In this document: positions 18,019 to 41,248 of the stretch, piece after piece
How positions within the stretch are numbered: the first letter of the stretch is position 1
Layout: each line of letters opens with the position of its first letter
Source of the DNA: Ceratodon purpureus
Taxonomy: Eukaryota > Streptophyta > Bryopsida > Pseudoditrichales > Ditrichaceae
DNA length: 64,000 nucleotides
Direction of reading: 5' to 3'
NCBI GenBank assembly: GCA_014871385.1
Contig: CM026429.1
Location: forward strand, 12,003,783 to 12,067,782
The notes under the pieces: model-generated
Told to the model about the DNA's origin: nothing
What the model saw: the letters and a program-made list of their open reading frames with translations, nothing else
Database searches by the model: none
Position numbers and translations under genes: made by a program

Positions 18019-18024
18019 TTATAT

Positions 18025-18033
18025 CACTAGTAG
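18025..18033 (+). repeat. CACTA left terminal inverted repeat
   Basis: CACTAGTAG, identical to the inverted right end at 38358-38366 and preceded by the TAT target duplication. Confidence 0.9.
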
Positions 18034-18046
18034 AAACAATGGAAAA

Positions 18047-18172
18047 AATGACCCTATTAATGACCCAAAACCGTGTCATTTCGGACCGTTTGACTTGGAA
18101 ATGACCAAGGAAGAATGGGTCATTCCGGACCGGTCATTCTCTGTACTGGGTCATTCCGGACCATTTTCACCC
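18047..18172. promoter_or_regulatory. CACTA left subterminal repeat array
   Basis: Six copies of AATGACC or its complement GGTCATT, plus one near copy, lie within 126 bases in both orientations. Several are followed by CCGGACC. In En/Spm, short subterminal repeats of this kind are bound by TNPA, so this is the likely binding region of the element's own TNPA-like protein. Confidence 0.75.
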
Positions 18173-18899: not shown

Positions 18900-21800
18900 T
18901 CATTTCTCCACCTTTGTGAGCTCTTTTGCCCACAATATGCTGGATCCAATTGCATCTTCTAAATTGAACTGCTCTGCCTCTTCAACTCGAACCATAAGCG
19001 GTTGGTTCACAGACACCTTCTCCAACGTGACACGTACGAGCTGCTGTGGTATGGGTTTCCCGTGGAAAACACCTGCTCCTCCCAAGGCCATTATAGTTCC
19101 GCTCGCAACGGTTATCTCCGGGTAAAGAGTGTTGGATAACTTCACTTTGTCGCCAACCTTAAACTGCATCATGAACCACTTACGAGTATGTTGAAGAAAT
19201 AAAACATGAAGTCTCGCGTACACTGCTGCATCTTACGACATATTTAGTTGATACTTTTTGTAAAATTCTGAACGAATACCTAGTAAATCACCGTTTTAAA
19301 AGCTCTCACCTCCATGTTCGACCGACGTGCTGTACTCTGGGAAGTAGACTGTCCAGTTCCTTTCTGCACACATTCGATTATGTCGAGGTAAGTCTTCGTA
19401 AGGTTCATAATTCTGGAGAACCGCTCACAAATTATAATTTACTTAATTAACAAGGTAAGTAAGATCATGACTAACCATCTTATACGACAAGCCGAAGTTC
19501 TCTGATCATTAGCAGTAATCTCAGATAGATTCATACATCGTTTAGCGTATCATTATCAGATTCAAAATGGAGCATTATAATACTTTTTCCAATGATTACA
19601 TTCCTGTAAATGAAAATGTACTAGGTTCAGATTAAGCATACCCTTTGTCACATCAGAAAACAATACTTTCAAAGCGTGAAGAGTGAGTTTTATCAAAGTA
19701 AACAGAATCCAAGTCCCCATTATATAATCTCCAATTACAACTTATGATGTACTTCTGGAAACCATCGACGGTACGTCAGAGCCATGACAAGTACAATAGA
19801 TGTGGTATCAACTAACCTGCTGTATTTTTAGTGCCTGGCATTCTTGAACGGTGGTATTCTCAAATTCCTGCGTACGTTGAGATTGTTGGAAGTTAGTCAA
19901 ACTGGAAACTGTTTTGTAACATTCCGTGTGATAACGGATCATGTGACATCTACAGACACAAACGGAATGATATGTAACTGGCCTTGATGTTTTTTAGCAT
20001 TCGCTGTACGACTCTATTTTCCCGAAGTGGTTCTATTGAATCATCTAAAGACCTGTATACAATTAAAATCACATGCTGGCCAAGAAAAGCACATAACTGT
20101 AAACCTCAACTTACAACATACATGCTACATCAGTTTTGAAATACAATCTACTTCGAGTACTCAACGTTGACTGGCGATATTTAGCAGAAAAACCAATGAC
20201 ACACTACTGATTGCGGTACACCATTTCAGTCGAAGGACCACGAGATCAATCTGCGAGTGACATTAACCTGTGAGCTAATGTAGTTGATGATGTCCACTGC
20301 GTGACATGAACTCTGTTGAACATTCACTTTTTCCTTCGTTTATGCCAAAAAATATTACTGTGATAATTCTTTAATCCTCTAGTGATGCCTTCATTATCAA
20401 CGGAAAGTACCAGAGCACGTGAAGCGACGACAGATGAGATAAAGAAAATTCAAAACTCACCTCTGCAGCACCTCTACTGGGATTGTTTCCGACACTGTTC
20501 TTACGTGTGACAGGAGGTTCTGTCTGCCAACAATGCTCAAGTATTACATGGATTACGTGCCAAGATGTTTAGTACATGTACTTGTGACATACACATGTAT
20601 ACTAAACATAAACAATTCAAAATAAATCTACAGATTAAACAAATACCCACTACTAATCCGATTCTACGACATAGACATTGGTAAACTTCTGTGTTTCAAG
20701 CCCTTGAAATTACCTACAATTGAGAACATCTCAAATTTCGTAAATGAATACTTTAATTACGAAAAGCCCTCATATGAGCCTCAATGTATTCTTCAGAATG
20801 GACCAGGTAGTGGTCTATCATTTTATCAGTTATCTGAATTACATGAATTAGAAAATAATGATCCTGGAAAAGAGTCCCGTTAAAAGAAATTGATAACTAT
20901 CTCTAAAGCACTACAATAATGACCAGAGACATATATACTACCATCACTGTCTGAAGAAATGATGTCTCCATCCAATGTACATAAATAAATCACTGTGGCA
21001 TATAGGTCGACGTCCTTAACTTTTTCTAAGTCAATCAATCAGAAAACATTACTCTGTACTTACCTCCTTCTGGAGGTGGTTGTCCTTAACCGCCCGACGC
21101 TTCATTGCATCATCTACATCTTCGTCGTCAGACGTTCTGCATAATCTGTCCCACCAGCGCTCACTACTTCCGATGCCACTGGAATTTCCCACCACATTCG
21201 TAGGCGTGTTGAGAACGTTGAACGTCCATTCACCTGGGTTCGTACTCCCTGTCCGCGGTAACTTCTCAGTCTCTCTGCCATCGGCATTTGGAAAACTACT
21301 GATGAAAGATTGTAGCATGGTTTGAATGCCGAGATTAGATTTCATAACATCACCGAGCATTCTCCGAGTCTCTACTTGGTTTTTCTCGACGGCGGTAAGT
21401 CTCTGAGAGTTTTTCTTCTCCATTTCCTGAACAACTTTACAGCTCATCAGTTCAGAAGTAGTGCGGCAGAGTAGTTCTACGAATTCCAGTTCATAGATCT
21501 ATTATAATCATAGTATGTACAGAAAACTGTGTCCACTGTAGGTTAGATTTCATCTGCGTCGCTGAATGTTGTTGTCCTATACAGCAATGCAGATTCAAAA
21601 CAGTTACTTTTGAGCAATCAGACGTTACGAAACGGTATGATGTTCTATCTTCTTAACACAATAACAGTATATATGTAAGAAAAATACTCCCCGTTTTCCG
21701 AACTGCCGAGAAAATCGTGAAACTGTAAACCTTCATCGAACAGTCCAAGACAGCTAAGTAATGCAAAGAGAAGGCAGAATGAAGAGAACAATTCATGTGT

Positions 21801-23939
21801 ATAAGCACGTACGGAGGTGTTTGGATTATCCTTCGCGGACCTAATCTCGTTCCCAACATCTGTAACGCCGAGAGATTTCTCCTTCTCCTTCCTCTGCATA
21901 CAGAATGTCAACAGACACATACATAGAAGTCGACGGTGAAAAAGTCAGGCATCTACAGCTATTACATCAGAAACGGCTCAGTCCAATCGTCATTGGTATA
22001 TAGCTAAGCAGACGTGTGAATTAAGAGTACATCAGTTCAGGTTTGGTGCTTACCAGTTTCGCAGCCTTTCCAGCATAACCCAGACGTCCAACACGAGGGT
22101 TTCGAGCTACCTTCTTCCTCTTTTCGATCATCCTCTCCGATTCCTCTTTTGAACTCGGAGTATCCCAATGTTTTTTCATGGCGTCCCATTCTTTTTCCGA
22201 GTACCTTGGGGGGGCTTTCAATTTCCCAGCATGTCTCCTCTTCATACGCTCTCGATCTTTCCGCATCCATGTCTTCACCATCTTGTCCATTGCTGCATCT
22301 GATACCTCATGGTCCAAAAACTCAAACTTCTTCCTCAATGCCTCGCGCAGTTTGATTTTTGAATCTTCGTATTGGTCTTCAAACTTAATCACACTCATGT
22401 CTAACATGCGCGGAGTTAAGTTGCGAATATATTCATGCCACTTGAGATGTCCTGCGCACGCACTGTCAATTATACCAGAAGGTTTTACCTGCACTACGTA
22501 TGGCGGAAGTCCAGCGTTCTCTCTTTTCTTGGCAGCCTCGTTGGCATCCCGTTTGCTAGCTCTCCTGATCCTTTTTTTAATCGAATCCTCTTTCAGAGAC
22601 ACAGCTTGAGAATCTGAATCCAGCTCCTTCTCTTCGTTCCCTGCTCCTTGTAAATCAGTGGTACTAGGCCGATGGTTCACCTGTGCAAAGTTCCAATTCA
22701 TTGGGAAATTAGGTTGCGGTACTCCAGAAAACATTGTCCGCATTTCCTGACTCGAAGAAGCCTGCGGTACAGGCACCCAGAAACAACCAGGACCGACAGA
22801 CATCTGCGTAGGGTTTGTTGTAGGAACAAACGTATTTGCTTCAGGTCGAGGAAATGTCGACTTCACTCTGCGAGAGTCATGCAAGGAGGGATTGTCGCGA
22901 CGGACTCCACGACCGGAGTCATCATATGTTTCGGCGGCTCTCCGTCCCTTCGCATTCACGGTTCTGCCCATGTTTCCGGCGGGACGTAAATCCCTATCTC
23001 CCCCTGATTCATTTGACTGTGAGTCGCTTTCACCATCCTCAATCGGGTCAAAATCGTCTGATAACAAAGACACAACGTGAGTACATGCTAAGTTGTCGGG
23101 CAAAGATTCGGAGTAAGTGTAACCCATTCCTAATAGAATACCCTAAAAAATACAACATGTACACCTCTGTCATCCTTTTCTATAAATGGGGCGAGAAGGG
23201 AACATGAATTAGCACAATAGGATCGTCGTTTTCATGTAGTGATACAAGCAAACTTATTTGAACGAGGTCAGAAGTGCGCAGTAAAAACGTGTACGTAAAC
23301 TGCCAACATTCGTGACATGCCAAATTAGGGCGACGTAAAGGTTTAGGGTTTTCATTACCTGATGGCTCACTGCCAATTGATTTGTCGTCGTCTTCTTCTC
23401 CAGATTTCTCCAGACGCTCGCCATCGTCGTAAACCGTTCTGCCCTCACTGTTTTTAGATTCATTCCTTTGAAGACGACTGCTTCGACGACTGGGTCCTTC
23501 TTCCTCACGAATTTTTCTCTTCTTGACGGCCTGCTTGTTCCCTCGCAACGACGAATACCTGCATGACAGCAGACCCACAACGTAATTTCAATCAACGATG
23601 ACTCCTGCTCAACAATGTAGAGAGTACATATGGGAAGACGATCGGAAGGGCGTCTGAAGCTGTACACCAAAGGAACAATACCGGGAAGGAGAAATCTCAA
23701 CCGTCGAATAGAACACGTGTCAGGAATCCTGTGGTACAGTACACGAACATCTAGGGTTAGTAGGGGTGAAGAGTAGAGACTTACAGTGAATTCGCTAAGT
23801 CGACAGATGGTTGTAAAAATGCATTATTCCTCGCGATTCTCGAGGCACGCTCCCTCTCGTACTCGTTCATCTCCTCCTGGTCCTCCTCCAATTCCGTACT
23901 GTTGTGGGCGTCTTCGTCGTGTAGGTTTGTTTGGGACAT
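18900..23939 (-). CDS. TNPA-like CACTA accessory transposition protein, nine exons
   Basis: Predicted DNA-binding partner of the transposase. Exons on the minus strand: 23939-23785, 23558-23359, 23057-22054, 21893-21813, 21426-21064, 20523-20461, 19867-19817, 19363-19310, 19163-18900. All junctions are GT-AG and phases agree throughout, giving 744 aa with no stop. Near residue 30 is MNEYERERASRIARNN, and RRSSRLQR follows, both common at the start of plant proteins of this type. About residues 300-460 resemble the plant Ptta/En/Spm transposase domain (Transposase_24), with WHEYIRNLTPRML, MVKTWMRKDRERMKRRHAGKL and a closing RNPRVGRLGYAGKAAKL. The 21426-21064 exon opens with a coiled-coil-like stretch. 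The last exon (FKVGDKVKLSN...VASGTIMALGG...) resembles the TNP1/En/Spm C-terminal domain. Small extra exons could have been missed. Confidence 0.8.
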
Positions 23940-25712
23940 TGTTGCCACTTCTTCGACCACTTCTGTCTTGCTGTAGTTCTAGAAGGGTAACTCTGTGGGG
24001 CGGAATCGGAACGCCGTCTGAAGTCGAGTGATCGGTGACAGGAGACGAATAGAATGCAATTCCGGAACAGCGGAGTCTGTACACCGTCTTCAAAAACAAG
24101 GTGAGTCTCCGTCGCCATTACGTGAGCTCTTACTCTACGCTGAATTTCCCATCTCATGCAAAAGTACGAGTGAACTGCGAGTGGAATTAGAAGGTTCTGT
24201 ACATCATCCACTCCATGTGCACCGTCACGCCCAAGTCATGTTAGTGTGAGCTCTAGTCCTTGAGAGACATCGTTTATCGGTGACTGCGATGAACTATCAG
24301 AGTCCCCGTCCGGACTCCTTGAGGTTGCGACTCTAACGATCCGGAACCGGGAATATCTACATTGTGCTGATACAATTCAAGTAGGTTTTACTCTTGTGAA
24401 AGGAGATGGTATGAGAAAACTTGAGTACTCTTTGAATTGATCCGTGATGGTATGAGAGTAGTTTAGGTCATTGTCGTGAATTAGTTTTCTATATTCGGTT
24501 GCTAATCATCATGATAATGTCTCTTTGTTGCGCAGTTGGCAGTTGTTGCTACGTCTTGATGAAATCAGCTAACGAAATATTGATGTGGGCGGTGATATGT
24601 GATGACGGAATCTTGAATGCTCGTTGGATTTGCGAAGAGGATCACGTATTGGAGGCAGCGAATACACGAAGGTATTGGTTTTCACGTAATTCAAGAATGC
24701 GTTATGACCGCCTTACCAGTCTTTTCTCTTCATATTCTGAATCGGTATCACAAATACGGATCAGGACAGACTGAATATGAATATATACTTCCTCTTCTGA
24801 TTAGTTACAGGACTAATTTTTTCGTAAACTCAAGTTGTCGAAATCTGTAATCCATTAAATTTGATGCTTCTACAAATGCAGATATGGATTAGGAAACAGT
24901 TACGCTCTGTGAAGGTGAAAAGCGTAATTCAGAATCACACCTAGCCATTCGTAATTGTGAGAATGCTGTAACAATTGAATGCACTTCCAAATCTTATATT
25001 ATGACTGTATTTTCCTAATTTAACCAGTTCTGGCTACGCAGGAAGTAATTACGCTTATCGAATTCCGTGCCATTTTAATATCCGCATGTAAAACCATAGA
25101 AGGTCTTCGGAGAGTGTTCTGGCCAATTGATGTCTCCACTGAATATGAATACATGCTTCTTTACAGGAACATAGACTGCTGATCAACGGGCATAATATTC
25201 TGGACGCGAAACGGAGTTATTATTACTTCCTCATTCACGCAGAGAATAACCTTATAGAGGTGGTATCAAAAAGAAGGTCTCAGCTCGGTATGCAGGTTCG
25301 TAATCATCAATCCTTACCTCGAATTAACACACCAAAGTTTAAATTTGATGTGTTCATAGGATATTAATGAAGCATGGATGAGGCAACAAATTTATACGTA
25401 ATGAGGTACTGAAATTCTGTAATAAAGCTACGTCAGAACGACAGAATATCCATGTTTAGTCCAACGGTTTCTTCAGGTGTTGAATTATGTAAAACAATTT
25501 CATTTTTTGGGAAGACATAAGATGATGAACGAATAGATGTTTTTTCATTTTTAATTCTTATTTCCTTTCAGGCAAAAACCAAGAACTTCAACTTATTCAT
25601 TGACTTGTGGTTCATTTATAAATATTTAAATTAAACAACTACCTAGCAGCAATCACACGCATGCAACTTCAAACGTAAGCTAATGATATTTTTCCACTGT
25701 ACATTTTTCAGG
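23940..25712. promoter_or_regulatory. Divergent spacer between TNPA-like and TNP2-like genes
   Basis: 1.77 kb separate the two divergent start codons, so promoters for both should lie here. A splice acceptor (ATTTTTCAG) sits immediately before the TNP2 ATG at 25713, implying a noncoding 5' exon and leader intron within the spacer. Short open frames, for example at 24499-24774, have no recognisable domain. Confidence 0.5.
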
Positions 25713-28700
25713 ATGGCGGAACGTCTACCTATTTCGGACCCTCGCCGTATCAAAGCCAGAGATGACAAACTATGGGTGCGGGAGAAGAGGAGGGCTGCTA
25801 TGTATGGGTTTCCAAGAATTTACTGTCCCTGCACTCTTCACAAGGGAATTGGACACTGTTTTAAATGGGATGAAGTTGAGAAACACTTGTACCTTCACGG
25901 GAGATCTCCAGAGTGCAGGACTTGGCACGGTCCAGACGACCCGGACTCTTCCGACGAGGAGTGGGAGAACCAGTTCACGATGCAGAATAAGCCATCGTCC
26001 TCTACCCCTCAAGAACGAGACAATGGTGTACAGATACGGACAATGATGCAACACATTTACCAAGAAGTGGAAGACATAGCAGCAAGAGAGGAAAGGCTGG
26101 ACCAGACTACTATGGATGCCTTGGAAGCTTCAGACAATATCCTCAACACCAACGCAAATGAAAGTACACCATCTGGTAATGACGACGATGACCGCTTTGA
26201 AAACGTATCTAACAGTCCTCGACATTTCAACGATGATGGTTTGCGAAATGCGGGAAACATGTGGTCGCAGACAGAGGTATGCTACCTCCGTGAAAATATA
26301 CATGTTACATTTTTTATGAATTCATAGGTACAAGACGCGATGGTGTTCGTGCATTTGTTTTAATGTGTATTCACTTAATTGACTCGGATAGGCACGTGAC
26401 TGAATTTGACAGGGACTTCAATTTGAGTCCATCGACGAGGAGAGAGTTAGAGACAGTAAAGCGTTGGAAGAGGCTGTCCGTCTCCTGTACCAGGGATCAA
26501 ACATCTCGAAGCTAGGAGCAACCATAACGCTGGTTAACTTAGTCGCCACGCACCCAGGAATCACGGAAAAAGCCGCGGACGATATATTCGCTACCGTGAA
26601 GAGTTTACTTCCTCCAGATAACTGTCTGCCTTTGTCACTATACCAGGCCAAGACTTTGACAAAACGACTTGGACTCAACTTCAAAAACATTGATGGTTGT
26701 CCGAACGGGTGCGTGCTTTATGACCAACCAGAAACAGTTAATCTCGACCGCTGTCCTACCTGCAGTTCCCAGCGGTATAAGGATATGTTCAATAGAAGCA
26801 GACCACTGAAGGTCCTTAGATTTTTCCCCCCTACTCCACGGCTACAGAGATTTTTTAGAATTCCTGTTTTGTCGAAGCTCATGAGGTGGCATAAGGAGAA
26901 CGAGAGCACAGATGGGAGAGTCAGGTATCCTGCGGACTCAATGGCATGGAAGGCGTTGGATAACATGGATCCGGCTATATTTGATACGAAGGGATTTGGT
27001 CATGAAGTTACTGATGTACGTCTTCAGATATCGTGCGATGGAATATGCCCATTCAAGCTGCACAAGTCCACATGGTCAGCTTGGCCGGTTATTGCGACAA
27101 TCTTGAATTTGCCGCCATGGTTAATAACGAAAAAATTCTTTACTATTCTCACTCTGCTCATACCAGGCAGATCACAGGTTCCATTCGAATACTTCAATGT
27201 ATGGCTACGACCGTTGATTGATGAGCTGAAGGTTTTGTGGGATGGTGTTCCGGCATATGATGTTCTGAGAGAAGAAGGGGATCGACACTTCAGGTTAAGA
27301 GCTGCTGTTTTATAAACAACTCACGATTTCCCGGGTTATGGGACTGTCTCAGGTTGTTCTCACCAAGGTTTTGTGGCCTGTCCTCCTTGCGGTCCTCAGC
27401 TGCGGGGACGCTACGCTCACGAGAGCAAAAAATTAACGTACAGGGACGCTCGACGGTGGTTGAGGCCAGATCACTACCTCCGGTCCGAAGGTTACAATTC
27501 ATTGTTTGATGGTCTTCTCGAGAGTAGAATGCGACCTGTTACTGTGACACCAGCGCAACAACTTTCTTCGCTGCGTCGATACCATGCTTGGCTACGAAGA
27601 CGTGGACGGCAAATTCCTTCTGAAAACGACACAGCTCAGCAGCAGACTTCATCGGCACCAGTCACCGGTGAGGCAAACGCATCGTCTTCGCACTGTACTG
27701 CGTCTCGAAATGAAAGAGCTTCAACTGCGTGTGAACATTCCGGAACACGTGGACGCACGAAGCTGAGGAGGTCGAATACGAGGAAACGGTCATCGCCGGA
27801 TCCATCAAAAGTCGATGGCGTTAAACGGAGCAGCATCTTCTATGAATTACGGTATTGGGAGGTCAGTTTGGATTCATGTATTTTTCATTTGTCAATTTCT
27901 AAAACCATCTTCCTGGAGCAAATCTTGTTTTGATATGTGAAGTTGAATTGGACAGTCGGTTGTCAGTGTCATTTTGTATTGAAAAATGTGTTCGTAAACA
28001 AACACCAAGGTGGTCCAAACTATGCTATACAATATACTTCCATATTCAAATATCATGTCAACCTTGTTATTGAACTTCTAGCCTTAACTGATTAGTTTTG
28101 TTCCGAATGAACTGTGTAAAGTGAAGCTTGTTCTGGTTGAGTGTCGTCAGCAGTGATTGAAATCTTATAATTATTAACTCATGTTTAACAAAAACGAACA
28201 ACTTCATTTTGGAGTACAGCCTTATCATCCGCACTTGTGCACATTTTGAATTACTAATACAGGGTAATTGTAATTAAACGGTGAAGTAGAGGTTACGTGT
28301 TATATACACCCCGGCTAACAGATGTCGTTCATAATAACATCCACATGTTTGTAATGCGTGATTCCGCCAGTTGTTTTTATGAATTTGTATAAGTACTAAT
28401 CTTTTACAAAAATATTGAATACTGTGAGACTTCATTCTTTTAAGAAATTCTCGAAAACTTTGATAGACAGACCTAGTTGAAATTCGTATCAATATCATTT
28501 GAGGGTCACTCTGTTCTTTTAAATATGATCGAGTCAAGTAAAGGATATGCTCTTCCAATACGGAAAATCTGGTTTAATATACGAACATTGCTTTAGTGGA
28601 GGCGTACTGTTCGTCGATTATGTCAGATCACTGTTTTGTACATGTGTCAGGGGAAATGAAGAATTCAACATTGGAGTATTTACTGAATGATTTAATTTCG

Positions 28701-31157
28701 CTTTTGATGTATTCGTCTTGCATCATGACTTCTCGTTTTAACAGACTGTGTTTTGGATTGCAGCATCTACTGATACGGAACACATTGGATATCATGCACT
28801 GCGAGAAAAACTTTGCTGAGAACCTTCTTAAGACAATATGTGGCTGTAAAGAGAAGGACTCAGTAAAAGTTAGAAGAGATATGCAGAGGGAGGGTATTCG
28901 AAGACATTTATGGATGGTACCAGACCCGAGGAACGCGTCAAGGATGTTGAAACCGGTGTCCAATTATGTTCTCACAGCGAAGGAGTTCGATACCTTTTGT
29001 ACTAGGTTAGAGAATTTGAAAGTCCCTTCAGAATACTGTTCAGAACTAGGTGGCCACATCAGAAACAAAAAATTCAGTGCCTTGAAGTCGCATGATTACC
29101 ATATCCTCATTCAGACATTGATACCTCTCGCTTTAAGAGGACTTATGGAGCCCAAAACCCGGATGGCAATAATGAGATCTTGCAGGATATTTAGACGACT
29201 GTGTTGCAAGGTTTGGGATCCCGCACAAACTGATAACTTACGAGATGATGTGGCGGAAACCCTGTGTCTCATGGAGATCACTTTCCCACCTACCTTTTTC
29301 AACATCATGTCCCATCTCCCATTGCATCTAGTTGATGAACTTGTAGTTTTAGGTCCGACTCAGGTTAGGTGGATGTACCCTATTGAGAGGAACATGATGA
29401 CCCTAAAAAATCATGTGAAAAATAGAGCCCGTCCTGAAGCATCGATTGCGCATGGTTATTTGATGGATGAAACAATGGGATTTGCAACGTCATATATGCA
29501 TGGATTCGACGTGGTGAGGAGGCGGGTGTGGGACGCAGATCCGGAAGACTGTGAAGAATTTGAAGTTCTACAGGGCGCTCCAGTGAATATTACGTTAACA
29601 AGGGCGGAACGTGATTCCCTCCACAAATTCGTCATCAGAAACAACACACTTACTGTTGCTTACTATAGGTAACTTCTCCAAAACTATTGACTGCAGAGTC
29701 TATTTGAAAATATGTGTATTCATGTTTATTCCTACAGTTGATTTTCCACCTTTTCATATGGAAGTCCCTGTAAATATCTTAATGTTTAAAATTGTTATGA
29801 ATTATTTTCCAAACTCCGACATTAAATCTTTGTTTCAGTATTCATAGAACCAGTTAATGGTAGACTGTGTCGTCATAGTATCTGAGGGCAGAAAACCTGT
29901 TGCTCTGTTACCGAATGCTTTAAACAGTTTGATGTCGTGAAGTGTAAGGGTCTTCGTTGTAGACGTTTGCGTAAATTAAAGAAGAGGATTTAAATATACC
30001 GCGTCACATGGAAGAGTTATCAGTTCATTAATTTAAGATCGACAATATTATTTAATTTTTGTAACGCCAATGAAAGGACTGATTGCTACAAGGTATAGTG
30101 ACTTCACCCGATGAAGATTACAGAGTAGTCCACTGTTATTCCTTTTCAGTTGGCATATTGTTTGACCAGGAACTAATTGATTTGTATCAATTAATCCATG
30201 CAATTCTCTTAGAAAAAACCATTTGCTCATACTTAGTATATCACAGTGGATTAAACACCCAAGTGGTATCAGCTTAATATTGCATCGGTTTTACCCTGCA
30301 AGTTAGGATATTGAGTGATCTGGACGAATTCTAACCATGCCGTAGTGACATGTTCGTACAGAGAATGGGAAGAGGCGTGCGAAAGTCCAGGAAATACTCT
30401 ACTGCCAGTGGAAGAGTGGCTGAGAAGAAGGATTCACTCTTTGAGTCTTGACCTGTCAGATCCAAACGAAGCAGACCTTCTACTACTTTCAAATCCTCCA
30501 TTACTAACATGTAAACGATATTCAAAGATGAAAGCTTACGGGAACCATTGGAGAGTGGAGGATGAGGTGACCAATTCGTGGACAAACTATGACTGTGGAG
30601 TGGCCTGCTTTGAAGCGTCTGACGACGTTGTGCGATCCGGAATAGACTATGTGGGTATTTTGCAGGACATTTTGGTGCCAGATTATGGTGATTTAAATAC
30701 ACAAGTGATCATCTTCTCATGTGCCTGGAAGAAGAGGACTGACAACCATAACAACAGTACCTACGTTCGAGACGCAGACGGTTTTTTAGTTGTCAACTTC
30801 AAGCACAACATCCCCAAGTCTGTTGATCCATACGCTTTCCCTAGTCAGTGCACACAGGTTTTCTTTTTAGACGATGATCTTCGACCTAAAGGTTCACACT
30901 GGAAAGTGGTTCTCAGAAAGGAAGCTAGAGGAAGGCGAAAGGTTGAAGAAGATGACGACCTCTTCATATCCACCAACGCATCTTTAATGGGGGGAGTGGT
31001 ATCTGGAAGTTCCCTATTAAACCAATCTGCCGAACCTAATCTAACAGGAGCTATAGTCCTCAATGACGTTGATAATGCCATAGCAATGCAGGGTTTTGAC
31101 GATGATGCTACGAACAGAGTGAAAGGGAAAAGAAAACGAAGAACTCAGCAGAGGTGA
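25713..31157 (+). CDS. TNP2-like CACTA transposase, four exons, one in-frame stop
   Basis: DDE-type transposase that cuts and joins CACTA ends in the nucleus. Exons: 25713-26276, 26413-27861, 28764-29668, 30362-31157, phases consistent, 1237 codons. Residues 1-80 match the transposase-associated N-terminal domain (YCPCTLHKGIGH...HLYLHGRSPECRTW). Residues about 285-560 form the TNP2 transposase core: CPNGC, CPTC, LMRWHKEN, YPADSMAWKALD, ISCDGICPF, WPVIATILNLPPW, LIPGRSQ, RPLIDELK. LDIMHCEKNF opens exon 3. DUF4218 follows near 850-935 (VRWMYPIERNMMTLKNHVKNRARPE). DUF4216 is in exon 4 near 1068-1155 (VGILQDILVPDYG, VVNFKHN, QVFFLDDD). A TAA at 27313-27315 (codon 489) replaces the Trp of the conserved RAALLW segment, and the frame is open on both sides. 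The copy as written would make a truncated protein. Confidence 0.9.
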
Positions 31158-33493
31158 ATCCCAGGGGGCAGTATTCATGTCCACTCGAGAAAAGCAGGTG
31201 AGAGCATCGAATTTGAATGTTTAATGATTTATGAACTTTAGAAGTTCTAGACGTTAAATATCTCGAATTCTAATTTTCTGTCATTATTAGTGATTCTATA
31301 TTTCGTATTGATTTAATTGAAGTACTGAAGGAAAGAGTGCTTTTGACCAGGAGGACGTACTCATATCCATACTGTATTCATCGTTGAAAATCTATCAGGC
31401 TTGTGTATGTCTTTTGATTAATACGCAGTTTGTTTTGAATTCAGTAACTACTATGGAGGTTCAAACAACATGGCACGTGCTGCATTTCCAGAGGAGGTAA
31501 GCACCGCATTATCTTCTCGATGCATTCGTTTCATAACTCTCAATTCATTTGTGCGATACATGTACTTGACGGTAATTGTAAAATATATTGTTCAGATTAA
31601 CTGAGGTAATTCATTGAATACAGAAAAATATTCCACTTCTTCGTCAATTAAATTACGTCATCAGAGAGTGGGTTCTCTTCATTACATCGAGATACATGTT
31701 CTGTTTCTATATGCGTAAAATTGGGCACTTCGGAGTGGACGATGGACTGTTTCCTATTCGCTCTAAAGTACTCGGTGGGATTCAATAGTCGTTTTCCTTC
31801 ATCAACAATGTACTCACAGTTTTAGACAGAACTGTTCTATTCTTTATTATTTATACCTAGAATTTATGTTGTTAGTTGAGCTTGCATCGATAATTCAGAA
31901 CAATGGACTTTACATTGTTGAATAAAAAAAGAACGTGCGACGGTGTATTTGTAATCATACGAGAGAAAAACATGACGTGCTACGGTCTTCTTTTGTGACG
32001 GTGATCGCTGTTTTCGTACGTATTCTTCCAGCTGTTTTGTTGATCTAAAGAGTACTAAATGTTTACATAAGGAAATTAATGTGATGTTTTACAACGCTCA
32101 TGGTTTACATAACATATATGATGTAGGCATGCCGATTTCTAAATGCGTTAAATATTTCGACTTCTTGCAGAACGGAAATTGTTGCAGCAGTGTGAGATCA
32201 ACCTGAACGCACAGCGTGTTTTGTGATGTCTCAGTACATTTTCCCTAAATTTTTTGCAAATCTATGTCTATGTGATTCTGGATTTTGAGGGAGATATGGA
32301 TTTATAATCATTTAAGTAATGATATCCAGAGTTTAATTAGATATATAATTATAATTTTTGGCATTGTTTAGTAAAGCAAATGGTTTCGCATATTTCACAT
32401 TTTCATTCTGCTGAGGTTAATATAATTTACAAGTCCATATTTATGGTCACTCAGTTTCAGAAATTCATTGAAGTCATCGTCGATGTTCTTGCAGAGCAGA
32501 GCAGTCATCCAGTTGGACAAATGTTCTCATCCATAAGATGAAATTCGTTCTTTGGAGGGATCCGCCCCATCTCTTCGACGATCATTGAAGCAATCCTCGG
32601 ATTAGACGTGGTGGGTCTCCACTGAGAACGTAATTGTCTACTCAGCGCTGCTTTCCTAGTATGTCACAACCCACTACATCTTCATCTCAACTCATGATTA
32701 TGGCTGGGATTGTCCGAAATGTTCATACATCAAAGTTATGTTACAAAATCTACCAGATTCGTTCAGCATGTACAGAGTGTTACAAGTAATGTAACCTCTC
32801 AGAACATGCAAGTAATCTACGAAAATCTTTAAATTGTCCAGAAATCCCCATGCTACTAAAGGATGAGAACACTGGTGCAGGAGTGGGTTTTCTTTCTGTT
32901 TCTGAAACGGAGCGCTTGTTTTTTGTGGTCATCCTCTGTGTGGTTTTGCATTTCGAGGTGGGTGCATTCTCGTATCTGATGACTTTGTTACGTTGATGTT
33001 GTGAATTGTTGAGGAGGGAGGCATTGATAAGGATGTGCTTTAGTTTAATGGAATGAGGTGTTGACAAGGATGGTGAAGGTCGTGCTGGTTCAGGTTATGA
33101 GTTTGTGATGTACTTGGCATACGATAGAGATTCTTGTATACTGCGATTCGGAACGGGTAAGAGGATTGCCGAGTGCTAAAACATAAATAGCATAGAGCAT
33201 TAGTATCCATGTAGTTGTTTCGATTCCATCTGTCACTCCGGTCAATTCTGTTTTCTGTGCTCAATGCGGTAGTTGTCGCTATGAACTGGAGAGAATTAAG
33301 TAAACGAGGCTTTTTAACAGTCGCAATTTTGTCCGCCCTGGGAAGAAGTCCGTTTTCATGGTCGTCATGTGTTTTTATTCTTCAGCATACAAATCATGTG
33401 TTGCCGAGAGATCTCAGTTTGCTTAAACCGTGAGACAGAAAGCATGATCTCAGAAGCTGAAACCACGTTAGCGTGTTTGTCATTGGAGTTTGC
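31158..33493. other. CACTA internal region between TNP2 and the first accessory gene
   Basis: 2.3 kb of AT-rich DNA with no supported frame. It presumably holds the TNP2 3' UTR and the promoter of the next gene. A 50-codon ATG frame at about 33282-33434 shows no domain and was not called. Confidence 0.5.
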
Positions 33494-34866
33494 ATGACAG
33501 GTATGGGGATTTTATGTTCACCTGTGAGGATGGAAGGAGAAGTTGATCTGGGTTTCTCTGCCCCAACCGATGACGTCGGCAACTCTGAAACAAAAACGAA
33601 CACAATGCACAACGAATCCAATGGTATGTTTTTCACAAGCCTAAAGAAACTTCTACAACTGTGCCTAGATGCGGGTCGTCGTGGCAGTTGTGAGTGTTAT
33701 ACAATTGTAGATTTACGTGTCAAAAATCACCTCGGAAACCAAGGAGTAATGCGAAACAGTTATTGTTTTTACTGTGAAATTTTTATGAGAAATGTTTACG
33801 TGCAGCGAGTAGGGAAATGAGAGAAAACAATCTCTGATTTCTGAGACAGTACATTGTTTTGCAATTGTATTTGTTTTGTAATTACTCTGAGACGCTTTTT
33901 CTTATATGGCAGTCTTGCTACCTGAAGTTCACGGCATGGTTTGACTACTTTCACAGTATTAAATTGAAAGTAATTCTAACACTGTTGACTTGAGTGAATA
34001 ATTGTAAACCAGAGGACAGACAGACTTCTACAGATGTGGAAGCGAATGCAGACAACGATGCAGTCCACGTCGTGATAACCCATGGCACTGAAGACGATGT
34101 ACAAACTAATATCCCAGCAGTTCCAGAGGAAGTCGATCTTGAGGGGGGTTTAAAGGTCGGAATGTCTGCGAATTCGGCAATTGCGGGAGGGTCTCATGGT
34201 GCACTGGAAGTCGGCGGAGACGGTGGAAAGATCTGCGTAAACTATTATGTGTCCGGCACATCTCAGGTCCGCAAGTATTACACACTGAAGTTTCCAAACA
34301 AAGATACTGCTACACCGGAGAAATTTGAAGAGGAAGATATTGGAGTGAATTCGGGAAAGAAGACTGTGGAAGCTAGTGCTGAAGATGAAGATGACGAGGA
34401 TGAAGATGACACTGAGTCAATCAATGTGTCTGGCGGTGTTCTACTAGTACCTGGCTCAAAAGAGGATGCGAATTTCGGGTGTCATGTACCACAGGTCAAT
34501 GCTGTAGCGCGGAAAATGGCAACTTCCGGTATTGAAGCAGGTTATGGAAGCTACACCGATCATAAAACATACACACCGTTGCAGAGATGGGAATACGAAA
34601 ATGGCCTGGACGTTGACGGGGTGACCGATGTGAAACGATGGGCCATCGAGGTTGGATTAGCAGATGAGGGAGACGATGAGACACGGAATGCTAAAAGACT
34701 GAAAAGGAGCACTGCCAAAGAACCCCCGAAATACGGGTACTCTTCTGCTCGTATCATGATTACATCTGCACCGGATACGACAGATACAGAGGAAGAGAAG
34801 GAGGAGCCCAAGCCTGATGACGACGACGACGGCACTCGCGCACAGAAAGGAAAGAAAAAACTCTGA
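33494..34866 (+). CDS. Unrecognised acidic protein encoded in the CACTA element, two exons
   Basis: I do not recognise this protein. Exon 1 (33494-33623, donor AATG/GTATGT) joins exon 2 (34013-34866, acceptor ACCAG) in phase, giving 327 aa. The first exon is short and its ATG is one of several possible. Visible features are an acidic run DEDDEDEDD near the middle, a hydrophobic VSGGVLLVPG just after it, and the block YTPLQRWEYENGLDV...VKRWAIEVGL. RNAKRLKR is a possible nuclear signal. The tail is very acidic and then basic (DDDDDGTRAQKGKKKL). Long frame, coherent splicing and position between TNP2 and the right end suggest a real element-encoded gene. A captured host gene, or a gene decayed from a larger protein, is also possible. 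Confidence 0.55.
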
Positions 34867-36317
34867 AGTATTTGACTTTCTGAGAGAGGTATGTCATTTA
34901 TATACTCCATATATTCTTGGAGAACTTCTTAAGTATCACAAGATGTCCACTAAAGCTTAATCTTTACACTTCAAAATACTTAGGTTTTTTCTGTTCTAAC
35001 TGTTCTCTACGTGTGCAACATTTGCAGAGAATGTGACATTCGACGTACACTGCAATGGCGCTTGAATTTTCTAGTTATGCTAACTAGGATAATGATGGAT
35101 CGGTGATAAAGGAATCGTGAAACGTTCTCAATTGTCGACTGCGTGTCTTGAAAGATGCGTTCCGTGTGATAACCTTTTGAACTTTTAACTATGAAGGGAT
35201 GTAGATGACAAACGTTTCAGTTGTAAGTAGATGATTTTAACAAACTTCGTGACATCGGAACCTATAATTACTTCACATAATCAGCTACGTCTTTCATTTT
35301 TTTTTTCCCACCACATTTTCGGTTTTGTCCTGGACTTATAGCTCTGCCCGTCAAGTCTATGTGTGAATTCGTATGTGGCGTTTCTGTAAAAAACCTTTTC
35401 ATATGAAGTAAATTACCCTTGATGAATTGAAACACAGAATTCTCATATCGTTCGTGAAGAGGCTGCTTGTGATTTTAATTTGTTTAACGTGATATGACAG
35501 CTTGGCGTCAGTGTTGTTCATGTTGTAGAGAAAGAGTATGCACTTCTCTTACGTCTAAAGCCACAAGTCCCCCTTCAAGCTCGTAATGATCCTGCATTTG
35601 GAATGTGCGTTTTGATTATCGGTATTGGACGACTGTCCGTTGTGCTTTAGCAAGCATGGTCACTGATGGAACGTGAAGGTATGTGTTTAAAAAGTTGTTA
35701 ATTACTGAATGACATCGGGATCTTGAAGTATAAATGTAGTCAAAGACATTCAACTCGGCAGTTGTTTTCAGTTTTGGAGACATTCTGAACTTCAGCTGTT
35801 GGAGTAGTAATGGTGTCTTGAAGTCTGGACACTTCAAATGAAGGTAAAACTGCTGCTATCATCTTAACTCCGTTTAGAATTTCCACTGTTTGTGAAGTTT
35901 TTATTAAACCAAATTTCGACTATGCAGTGCATGTGAGCTTATTTATGATCTGTCTGTTTAATTTTATAAATAGGTTTTCTTATTTGTAAACGTCAATTCG
36001 TCGTCCACAATCTGATTGGTTATTGGTGACTTTGTAGGTTGGATTTGAAGGAGGTGTCATCCTATCCGGAGATATGAGTGCCAGATTCACTGAAGCTCAC
36101 ACAGAAGATAAGTCCCGTATATCCGATTAGACCGTCACTTATTCTGGATGTTCTACTACAAGTTTTTTAGATTACAGTGCTTATCATCTTACGGTTCATC
36201 ACGTGCTCACACTTTCGGTATCTCTGTTTAAACCGAAATATTGCCTACATATAGTTAATGACCCAAGGATCCTCTGAGTGTAGTTCCTAATGTTCGATTT
36301 GTTTGCTCTCTTTTGCC
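34867..36317. other. CACTA internal spacer between the two accessory genes
   Basis: 1.45 kb of AT-rich DNA with no supported frame. It probably holds the 3' UTR of the first accessory gene and the promoter of the second. Confidence 0.5.
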
Positions 36318-36965
36318 ATGGAAGTCCGGAGAGAATGGGAGGTAGGAAAAACTGCTGCAGCGTCCAATACGGAGGCTACTGATGATGGGAATAATAGTAA
36401 CACAGAATTGGAGGAGAGGGACGCTAAGAGGAAGAGGACAGACCAACCTCGGGATAGTCGTTCCGGACTGGAAATTAGTTCCAGAGATGACGATGACGTT
36501 TCGGATGTGCAAAGAAAGAAACGTAAGGAGTGTGAGGCTGTCACGGAAGGGTTCGATAGTATTGAGAAGGAAAGTGCAATTCAAAGTTCCACAAGGAGGA
36601 ATACGGGATTCTCTGGCAGTGAAGCAACGACAGAGGGAGAGGATGTTGGACAGTCGTCATGCGATCCTTTAGAATACGATGCCGAGGTATTGCGGAAGTA
36701 CGACGAGCACTGTGCGTTTGTAGAAGCGAATCCAGAGTGCTACGTCTTGAAGCTGACCTTAGAAGAGTTTGTTGGACAAACAGATGCCGACGAATCAGAA
36801 TTCGGGCCAGAGGATACCTTAGAGTCAATTTGGGAGGAAATCATTCATGCACCATTACCCTTCGAGGAACGCATCAGAATATGGAAGCAGCGCCATAATC
36901 GTTTCGTCGAAGTAGAGTGGAAGAAAAAGAGAAGGGAAGATGAAGGAGAGCGTAGTAGACATTGA
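36318..36965 (+). CDS. Unrecognised charged protein encoded in the CACTA element, single exon
   Basis: I do not recognise this 215-aa protein. The ATG at 36318 opens an uninterrupted frame to 36965. The N-terminal half is low in complexity and hydrophilic, with basic clusters KRKR near residue 40, RKKRKE near 71 and KKKRRE near the C-terminus, which look like nuclear localisation signals. The C-terminal half (about 110-205) looks folded: YDAEVLRKYDEHCAFVEANP, LKLTLEEFVGQTD, LESIWEEIIHAPLPFEERIRIWK. The last segments are probably helical. It lies 1.4 kb from the right terminus on the same strand as TNP2. Nuclear location and a role in the element's biology are inference. It might carry further exons downstream, or be a captured host fragment. 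Confidence 0.5.
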   Translation: MEVRREWEVGKTAAASNTEATDDGNNSNTELEERDAKRKRTDQPRDSRSGLEISSRDDDDVSDVQRKKRKECEAVTEGFDSIEKESAIQSSTRRNTGFSGSEATTEGEDVGQSSCDPLEYDAEVLRKYDEHCAFVEANPECYVLKLTLEEFVGQTDADESEFGPEDTLESIWEEIIHAPLPFEERIRIWKQRHNRFVEVEWKKKRREDEGERSRH

Positions 36966-38282
36966 CAGAGGTCCCTGCTCATTTAGAGGAGGTAATATTT
37001 CAGATCTATACAGCTTTTGCGTTTTTGGGTATATTATGAACTTTAGAGTTTATGGATGCAGTTATCTTTCAAAACTTTTATTGTACACTTTGAAATGCAG
37101 ATATATCACCGTGCCGTGGCTTGAATGTGATGTTGTCTACGGCATGACCTTGCAATTCGCAACGGTGCATACTATTACAATGCAAACAGAGTCTTGATGT
37201 ACGCTGGTCTGAGTATGGAGGATGCTCTTTCGGGTACATGTTTTCGTACACGTTTGAGATGTTCAATTCACTTGATATCTCAGTACATCTCTAATGAATA
37301 CATTATTAACAGTTTTACCTTGTAATGCACAGTGTTTATGTCAAGAGGACAACCGGACGAATTCGGCTCTCTGCATCAGTGTAGACTCGTTAAAGCACCA
37401 TGTCCGATTCCAGGAAGGCATTCTAAAGGCAGGATATTGTTGCATGAGTTCATAGGTGAACGGGACTTAGAATGACATTCGGCTTCGACAAAGGAGTCTG
37501 GGATGCATAGAAGTTCTAATTTATTTCAATTGTGTCTAAGTGGAATTTATCGTCTGTTATAAAACCCCTCTTCAGTGCAGTGAAACAATCCTTATCATAG
37601 CTTTTATCCGAATCCAGATTTCTGTTTTTGTGTGACAGTCGATTCAGTTTCCAGGATATGCCGATTCTCTACCCTATGGCAATAGATCTGTAAGGGTAAC
37701 GCATGTCCTCAATTGTTCGAGGTGGAAAGAAACAGATAGTTAGATGACCTTCAGCAATTTCACCTATGTCCACTTTAATTCTATTTGTTGTTGTCCTGTG
37801 AAGTAACTCGCTGAATACCCAACACGTAAATCGACCGAAGACCTCTGTTTACACCTTCTCTCTGACGGAGGTGGAATCCATGTCAAAATGGAAAATGTGT
37901 CATTTAGAATGGTAGATAGCAGGACGTATATTATAAACTTCAGGAGGATAAACCTGACGAGTACTATGTTTGCGTAGAGAGGATGACATCTTCGAGTGGA
38001 TAGTCAAAAGGCATGGTACTCCGAGATCTACATGTTTGCTCAGTTTCTGTTGTATGAATACATTTGAATCAATTTCATTGATAGCAATCTGGACGAAATT
38101 CGTAGACCCGTCACCCAGTTACTGGTAGATTGCGAACCAATGTCCATGCCGACTACATCTTCGTCCAAATTTACAGCAGTTACCTACAACCGCATCCAGG
38201 CAAAGTCGAAGTAAATAACGACGAGAAGACCAGAAGCAGACACGCAACTACAGTTTGCCCCGTCAGAATCTGAAAAATGTGA
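36966..38282. other. CACTA right noncoding segment
   Basis: 1.3 kb between the last element gene and the right subterminal motifs. No long frame is supported. The short plus frame at 36940-37197 overlaps the end of the previous gene and has no recognisable features. Confidence 0.5.
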
Positions 38283-38330
38283 GGGTCATTTACTGGGTCA
38301 TTTAAAACCTAAACCGGACATCTGGTCATT
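38283..38330. promoter_or_regulatory. CACTA right subterminal repeats
   Basis: Three copies of GGTCATT within 48 bases, with CCGGACA between them, match the motif at the left end. The array is sparser than on the left, as in many CACTA elements with asymmetric ends. Confidence 0.7.
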
Positions 38331-38357
38331 AGTGCACAGCCTCAAAGGACATGAATC

Positions 38358-38366
38358 CTACTAGTG
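38358..38366 (-). repeat. CACTA right terminal inverted repeat
   Basis: CTACTAGTG, the inverse of the left CACTAGTAG, followed by the TAT target duplication at 38367-38369. Confidence 0.9.
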
Positions 38367-38449
38367 TATGCCTCCCCTTTTCCATTTGTTTAGGAGCACT
38401 TATGTGAACAGTTGTGCATATGTTTGAATCCACTAAGTATCATCTCTTG

Positions 38450-40260: not shown

Positions 40261-41248
40261 TTACACCGTGCCCACAACCATGTCCAAGGGCCACCTCAAG
40301 CACCGCACCGTCTCCGGAGGACCCCATGCATCGGCAAACACCTTCATCTGATCCTCGTTGAGAGGGTCCTCTCCACGATCAATCGCAGTCTGCACCCCGG
40401 ACAAGGACTTCAGATAATTCACGAACTCGCCAAATCTTGCATCCACGGTTGCCTCAAAATGGGGGACTTCGTTTCCCTGCACAACTGGTGCGAAAGGGAA
40501 GGGCAGATTCTTGTATCCCGTCTCAACATACTCAAAGATCTGCGGAGACCAGTGGCGCTCAATGCTGGCCCAGAAGTCGTCCAGAGCTTTGGTAAGTTGG
40601 GCACCTTCAACTCTGGGCCGTGAAGGATACACCGTCGCGGCAATCACCCCACCTGGCTTACGAAGCACGTATTTCACGTTCTCGTAGAATTTGTCAAAAT
40701 CAAACCAGTGCAATGCCTCAACAATCAGCACCAAGTCCACTGACCCTTCGGGTCCCACAATGCGGGTGAGATCATCTTTAGACAGTGTCGTTGGGGTTGC
40801 GGAATAAGTTATATTGGGCCTCTTCTCAGCATACTTCAGCTGCTCGGAAGCCACATCTGTCGCGATTACCTTCTTGTAATGCTTGGAGATCTGTTGCAAG
40901 ATAAGAAATGGATACGAATCAATCACTGATATATATCATCATGCAATTTAGAAGGTTTACATACTATGAAACCCTAAACCCTAAAGATGATTCCCCAGTA
41001 GCACGGAGAAGAGCAATGGGGATGAGACGTCATATTACCACAGCAGCAGCTTGCCCATTACCAGTGCCGACATCCCACGCCAGTTCATGAGATGGTGTCA
41101 ACGACGCCAGGTACGAGTAAAGCTCCTCCGGAGCCCGTGGCCGCGCTTCCTTGTAAACCTCAGCTTGCTTGACGAACAGCTCCTCCGTTTCTTTCGCCAT
41201 CACACCTGTACCCACATTACTCAGTCCGAGTTCCACATCCGAAGACAT
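40261..41248 (-). CDS. SAM-dependent methyltransferase (class I, Methyltransf_11 type), two exons
   Basis: Predicted cytosolic small-molecule methyltransferase using S-adenosylmethionine; substrate unknown. Exons 41248-41039 and 40890-40261 join in phase 0, giving 279 aa. Motif I is WDVGTGNGQAA at 58-68, the SAM-binding glycine loop. VIATDVASEQLKYA follows with its ribose-binding acid. Then come VDLVLIVEALHWFD (motif IV region) and LRKPGGVIAATVY. The sequence resembles plant proteins related to yeast trans-aconitate methyltransferase. The alternative start at 41200 (MAKETEELFVKQAEVYKEARP) matches the usual N-terminus of the family better and would give 263 aa. A further upstream in-frame GTG was not used. 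The gene is divergent from the ARF-GEF gene, 1.76 kb apart. Confidence 0.9.

Follow-up and report, generated by a model that had tools for sequence, protein, structure and literature searches.

Two intact reading frames downstream of TNP2 as candidate accessory genes of a CACTA element in Ceratodon purpureus

TNP2 is the sole conserved gene of CACTA elements; their other genes vary greatly, and the function of these is known in few elements. In En/Spm of maize (tnpA/tnpD), TNP2/TNPD and a second protein are described as products of a joint, alternatively spliced unit (PMC2613891, PMC1636069), and such a unit is also reported for Tgmt*, a soybean CACTA element of 20.5 kb (PMC2613891). For TgmR*, a tnp2 ORF1 is described and, at higher coordinates, an ORF2 of unassigned function (PMC4219821). 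According to a lettuce study, tnpA is strongly diverged between species (PMC8195511), and a Chenopodium study describes ORF2 as receptive to extra coding sequence (PMC8978399). CACTA elements are expected to have variable second ORFs, and the two frames described here, ORF3 and ORF4, are real but of this expected kind.

The window, a stretch of 64 kb analysed as a whole, contains a complete CACTA element of 20,342 bp (18025-38366). It belongs to the CACTA (En/Spm) superfamily: its terminal inverted repeats CACTAGTAG and CTACTAGTG are complementary at 9 of 9 bases, with a CACTA start and a TAGTG end, it is flanked by a 3-bp target site duplication (TAT on both sides), it carries subterminal repeats in both orientations, and it encodes a Transposase_21 protein, in a gene broken by one in-frame stop. 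Six copies of the motif GGTCATT lie in the outermost 135 bp at the left end and three in the outermost 85 bp at the right end, with seven more elsewhere in the 64 kb. To compare possible ends, 20 CACTA sites left of 21000 were paired with 21 TAGTG sites right of 36965; 11 of the 420 pairs match over at least 8 bases (3 of those over 9), and the 18025/38366 pair is the only one among the 11 with equal 3-nt flanks. A broader ranking of ends, in which other fifth bases were allowed, places this pair second, the first-ranked pair having no target duplication. The neighbouring genes encode a starch synthase, a legume lectin, SEC7 and a U-box protein, a set that points to a plant host; to the right of the element there is also a piece of a methyltransferase gene on the minus strand (40261-40935; Methyltransf_11, E 2.6e-8).

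Table 1. Coordinates of the CACTA element's ends, repeats, genes and signals within the window.
Feature	Coordinates	Strand	Remarks
Target site duplication TAT, left	18022..18024	.	
Left terminal inverted repeat CACTAGTAG	18025..18033	+	TAT flank
GGTCATT subterminal repeats, six	18047..18155	.	left end; three per orientation
TNPA-like coding pieces	18900..23939	-	gene model; start 23939 read from sequence
TNPA-like model exons	23785-23970, 23359-23558, 22054-23057, 21064-21423, 20461-20523, 19310-19363, 18900-19163	-	
TNP2 transposase	25713..31157	+	exons 25713-26276, 26413-27861, 28764-29668, 30362-31157
Splice donor after TNP2 stop	31198..31199	+	
ORF3 exon 1	33530..33623	+	gene model; 33494-33623 in the sequence-only reading
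ORF3 intron, GT-AG	33624..34012	+	donor 4.6 bits, acceptor 1.0 bit (weak)
ORF3 exon 2	34013..34866	+	
Splice donor after ORF3 stop	34889..34890	+	
TATAAATA, TATA-like	35965..35972	+	353 nt upstream of ORF4 ATG
ORF4, single exon, 215 aa	36318..36965	+	
Splice donor after ORF4 stop	36992..36993	+	
GGTCATT subterminal repeats, three	38284..38330	+	right end
Right terminal inverted repeat CTACTAGTG	38358..38366	-	TAT flank
Target site duplication TAT, right	38367..38369	.	

The TNP2 protein matches the Pfam families Transposase_21 (E 8.4e-32), DUF4218 (1.9e-33) and DUF4216 (1.7e-8). An in-frame TAA at 27313-27315 falls at the end of the piece matching Transposase_21, and because of this one stop the present copy is probably not self-sufficient. 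The element ends, ORF3 and ORF4 are all intact despite it. On the minus strand the gene model yields two models, which we read as one gene spanning 18900-23939. Its main piece matches Transposase_24 (PF03004) weakly, with E=0.018 and 15.7 bits, under the curated cutoff of 28.7; the composite scores 15.1 bits against the same cutoff, and a match to FDF also falls under its cutoff. By eye, the last exon looks like the C-terminus of TNP1/EN/SPM, although Pfam returns no match there. These pieces run divergent from TNP2; for Tgmt*, the published description gives a same-strand order (PMC2613891). Judged by its sequence, the minus-strand gene may already be the TNPA of the element, in which case ORF3 and ORF4 would be extra genes; if it is not, they would become candidates for the TNPA role.

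Both frames were proposed in a sequence-only reading as open, protein-like and on the TNP2 strand, and both are found downstream of TNP2 inside the element, with codon scores far outside those of the element's noncoding windows. ORF3 exon 2 scores +0.257 per codon, compared with a maximum of -0.051 in 332 noncoding windows of equal length, and ORF4 scores +0.252, compared with a maximum of -0.034 in 342 windows; the noncoding background blocks were hand-picked, and 66 of the 1845 training codons come from one off-frame TNPA piece, which was left out of the gene-model runs. For both stretches the proposed frame outscores the other five and alone is free of stops. In the same DNA, the runner-up frames reach +0.129 and +0.142, about half the value, and these also exceed the noncoding windows, so part of the codon signal is the composition of purine-rich DNA. 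Of 500 dinucleotide-shuffled versions of 31158-38366, none had a stop-free run of 224 or 290 codons, the maximum being 209. An open length beyond all 500 shuffles, together with the in-frame codon bias, implies that ORF3 and ORF4 were coding until recently.

The structure of ORF3 agrees in part with the two-exon, 327-aa protein first proposed. The frame 33494-33623 plus 34013-34866 is present and reads through in phase across the GT-AG intron; the gene model, however, prefers a start at 33530, giving 315 aa, and position 33501, shortly 3' of the ATG at 33494, has a donor-like site. With 43 codons and a score of +0.164, exon 1 does not stand out from 370 short noncoding windows (maximum +0.177) and is not significant by itself. 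Adding the block 33481-34012 to the gene model gains 25.0 bits, a value reached by 0 of 200 shuffled blocks (mean 11.1, maximum 21.5). Splice sites and starts were scored with hand-entered matrices of a generic plant consensus. Joining ORF3 and ORF4 as one protein was tried and rejected: with the ORF3 stop disallowed, the model score drops from 167.8 to 147.1, and ORF4 remains separate even so. Between the two, the gene model adds a 32-aa frame of two exons (35838-35843 and 36038-36130, plus strand), which is weak and possibly noise.

ORF4 was found as the uninterrupted single-exon frame initially described. Both products are acidic, as had been claimed for ORF3 (computed pI 4.41 for ORF3 and 4.67 for ORF4), and both contain basic clusters, those of ORF4 being the three expected ones, at residues 37, 66 and 202. 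Its C-terminal half had been called helical; the last 55 residues are indeed mostly helical in a single-sequence AlphaFold2 prediction, a low-confidence model with a mean pLDDT of 55.2 in which this block reaches 66-81 and the rest is mostly below 60. A Foldseek search of the model against the PDB gave 10 matches, the best at E 4.7, and these were rejected. For ORF3 exon 2 the same procedure gave a mean pLDDT of 33.7 and no usable model.

We searched Pfam, NCBIfam and PDB sequences with ORF4 and ORF3 exon 2, and Pfam with full-length ORF3. As anticipated from the sequence, neither protein has a recognisable domain: no relative scored above cutoff in these collections, and there was no Pfam match to Peptidase_C48, the ULP1-type protease, or to Transposase_24 (PF03004). 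The missing likeness to TNPA says little, because published TNPA-like or second ORFs of CACTA elements are described as poorly conserved or unrecognisable (PMC2613891, PMC1636069, PMC8195511, PMC4219821). Three matches below cutoff were taken as chance: ORF4 with 2EXR (E=0.16, 13.5 bits, cutoff 24.8), ORF4 with two USP4 chains (E=0.083) and ORF3 with spore_SleB (E=0.0069, 16.3 bits, cutoff 236.5). Scans of prokaryote genome contigs with ORF4 and ORF3, and of viral contigs with ORF3, ORF4 and a TNP2 piece, gave 0 confirmed relatives each, which says little about plants. Neither ORF3 nor ORF4 has a further copy in the 64-kb window at E up to 1, and comparison of the two with each other and with the other element proteins (in-frame pieces including TNPAc2, TNPAd and TNPAe, low-complexity filters off) gave nothing better than E 0.027. 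Among the literature matches listed, in which subscription journals are thinly covered, no title or opening of an abstract describes ORF3 or ORF4.

All three plus-strand genes have a splice donor scoring 3.8 bits or more no further than 45 nt past the stop (3 of 3, with a chance of about 0.045 each), both limits having been set after the sites were seen. In the stretch as a whole, 4.5% of positions have such a donor after them, as do 4.8% of the 647 stop trinucleotides. When the limit is raised to 4.5 bits, two of the three plus-strand stops keep a donor, and no donor of at least 3.8 bits lies within 45 nt after the minus-strand stop. Because every plus-strand gene has a donor after its stop, the sequence hints that TNP2, ORF3 and ORF4 form one alternatively spliced unit, as in En/Spm. 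Other signals speak for separate transcription: the TATA-like TATAAATA before ORF4, which has 3 plus-strand copies in 64 kb and recurs at 25617 (+), 96 nt before the start codon of TNP2, and, in the spacer from TNP2 to ORF3, an AATAAA at 31921.

Synonymous codon choice was used to compare the frames with the element's own genes and with its neighbours. The codons of ORF3 fit TNP2 and TNPA better than the pooled host genes by 36.5 bits, and those of ORF4 by 22.9 bits. Among six host pieces each left out in turn, the two from PUB, the lectin and the starch synthase were negative (host-like, 4 of 6), and the two from SEC7 behaved contrarily, at +16.7 and +57.5. Since both SEC7 pieces score element-like, codon usage leans to the element and still leaves room for capture. 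Taken together, position, codon usage and splice sites suggest that ORF3 and ORF4 belong to the element itself as accessory genes, in the slot downstream of TNP2 where a poorly conserved TNPA-type gene is often found in CACTA elements, and we put the chance of this at about even. By analogy, they may be the fast-changing helper proteins usual for CACTA elements and not extras. The sequence shows intact coding frames on the TNP2 strand of a bounded CACTA element; the codon usage looks element-like, and the donors hint at expression from an alternatively spliced unit in common with TNP2. The products would be acidic, probably nuclear proteins that aid TNP2 and perhaps also the TNPA-like protein of the opposite strand, either at the subterminal GGTCATT repeats or through a role in keeping the element active.

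The sequence-only reading had offered end binding, targeting, escape from silencing or capture as possible roles, and we weighed our reading against several others. One or both ORFs could be captured host genes or fragments travelling as passengers, as CACTA elements are reported to take up host gene fragments (PMC8978399, PMC8195511). The SEC7 exons, with the same element-like codon preference, and the TATA-like site of its own upstream of ORF4 would fit such an origin. We nevertheless consider it unlikely, given the long unbroken frames on the TNP2 strand and given that searches of Pfam, NCBIfam and PDB gave nothing above cutoff, where a domain would be seen in most host genes. The frames could also be decaying or functionless, open merely through recency and with a product of no importance, in line with the in-frame stop in TNP2 of the present copy and with the lack of relatives in prokaryote and viral contigs; the shuffles and the codon bias, which imply recent coding, make this improbable too. 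That ORF3 is an alternative C-terminal extension of TNP2, reached from a donor at 31154 before the stop through small spacer exons, we regard as very improbable. The whole-element gene model does chain TNP2 to ORF3, and adding the spacer gains 5.3 bits, matched by 1 of 60 shuffled spacers; this gain is small, however, one acceptor in the chain scores -2.9 bits, and the rival donor past the stop is the stronger of the two (5.1 versus 3.3 bits).

Two further readings take ORF3 and ORF4 out of the usual gene set. The VANC proteins of VANDAL elements are anti-silencing proteins, and a VANC-like role beyond the TNPA/TNPD pair would suit acidic proteins with basic clusters in an element whose TNPA-like gene is already on the minus strand, leaving both ORFs without a standard role. 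Nothing in the sequences speaks for such a role, and we hold it to be decidedly unlikely. It is likewise doubtful, in our estimate, that the two represent new accessory families besides TNP2 and a divergent TNPA, which would release the lineage from silencing by the host or serve as a further part of its excision complex. With its divergent TNPA-like pieces and two intact orphan frames, the element is a good test case for the evolution of the second gene set and for proteins beyond the TNPA/TNPD pair. Were other copies to show purifying selection, ORF3 and ORF4 would define two new families of proteins linked to transposition or to evading silencing.

Compared with described elements, the present one is like Tgmt* in size, in its subterminal repeats and in its 3-bp target duplication, and both have TNP2 with coding sequence downstream (mosaic exons in Tgmt*) whose product is without a conserved domain, so far as the account of Tgmt* goes (PMC2613891). 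As described there, Tgmt* differs in having one gene on one strand that joins tnp2, TNP1 domains and mosaic exons (PMC2613891), whereas here the opposite strand carries the TNPA-like pieces and the ORFs downstream are compact. The second protein of En/Spm also differs from ORF3 and ORF4, which have no Transposase_24 domain and are predicted from sequence. SmTRC1 of Schistosoma mansoni, an animal element likened here by its description, is reported to combine a Transposase_21 gene with ORFs in tandem that are unlike TNPA and are carried on spliced transcripts (PMC1636069). The Jozin CACTA elements of Chenopodium have, as described, an ORF1 with Transposase_21, DUF4218 and DUF4216 and a variable ORF2, and one published Jozin terminal inverted repeat starts CACTAGTAGAAA, as does the left end here; the additional domains given for Jozin, Transposase_24 and Peptidase_C48, occur in neither ORF3 nor ORF4 (PMC8978399).
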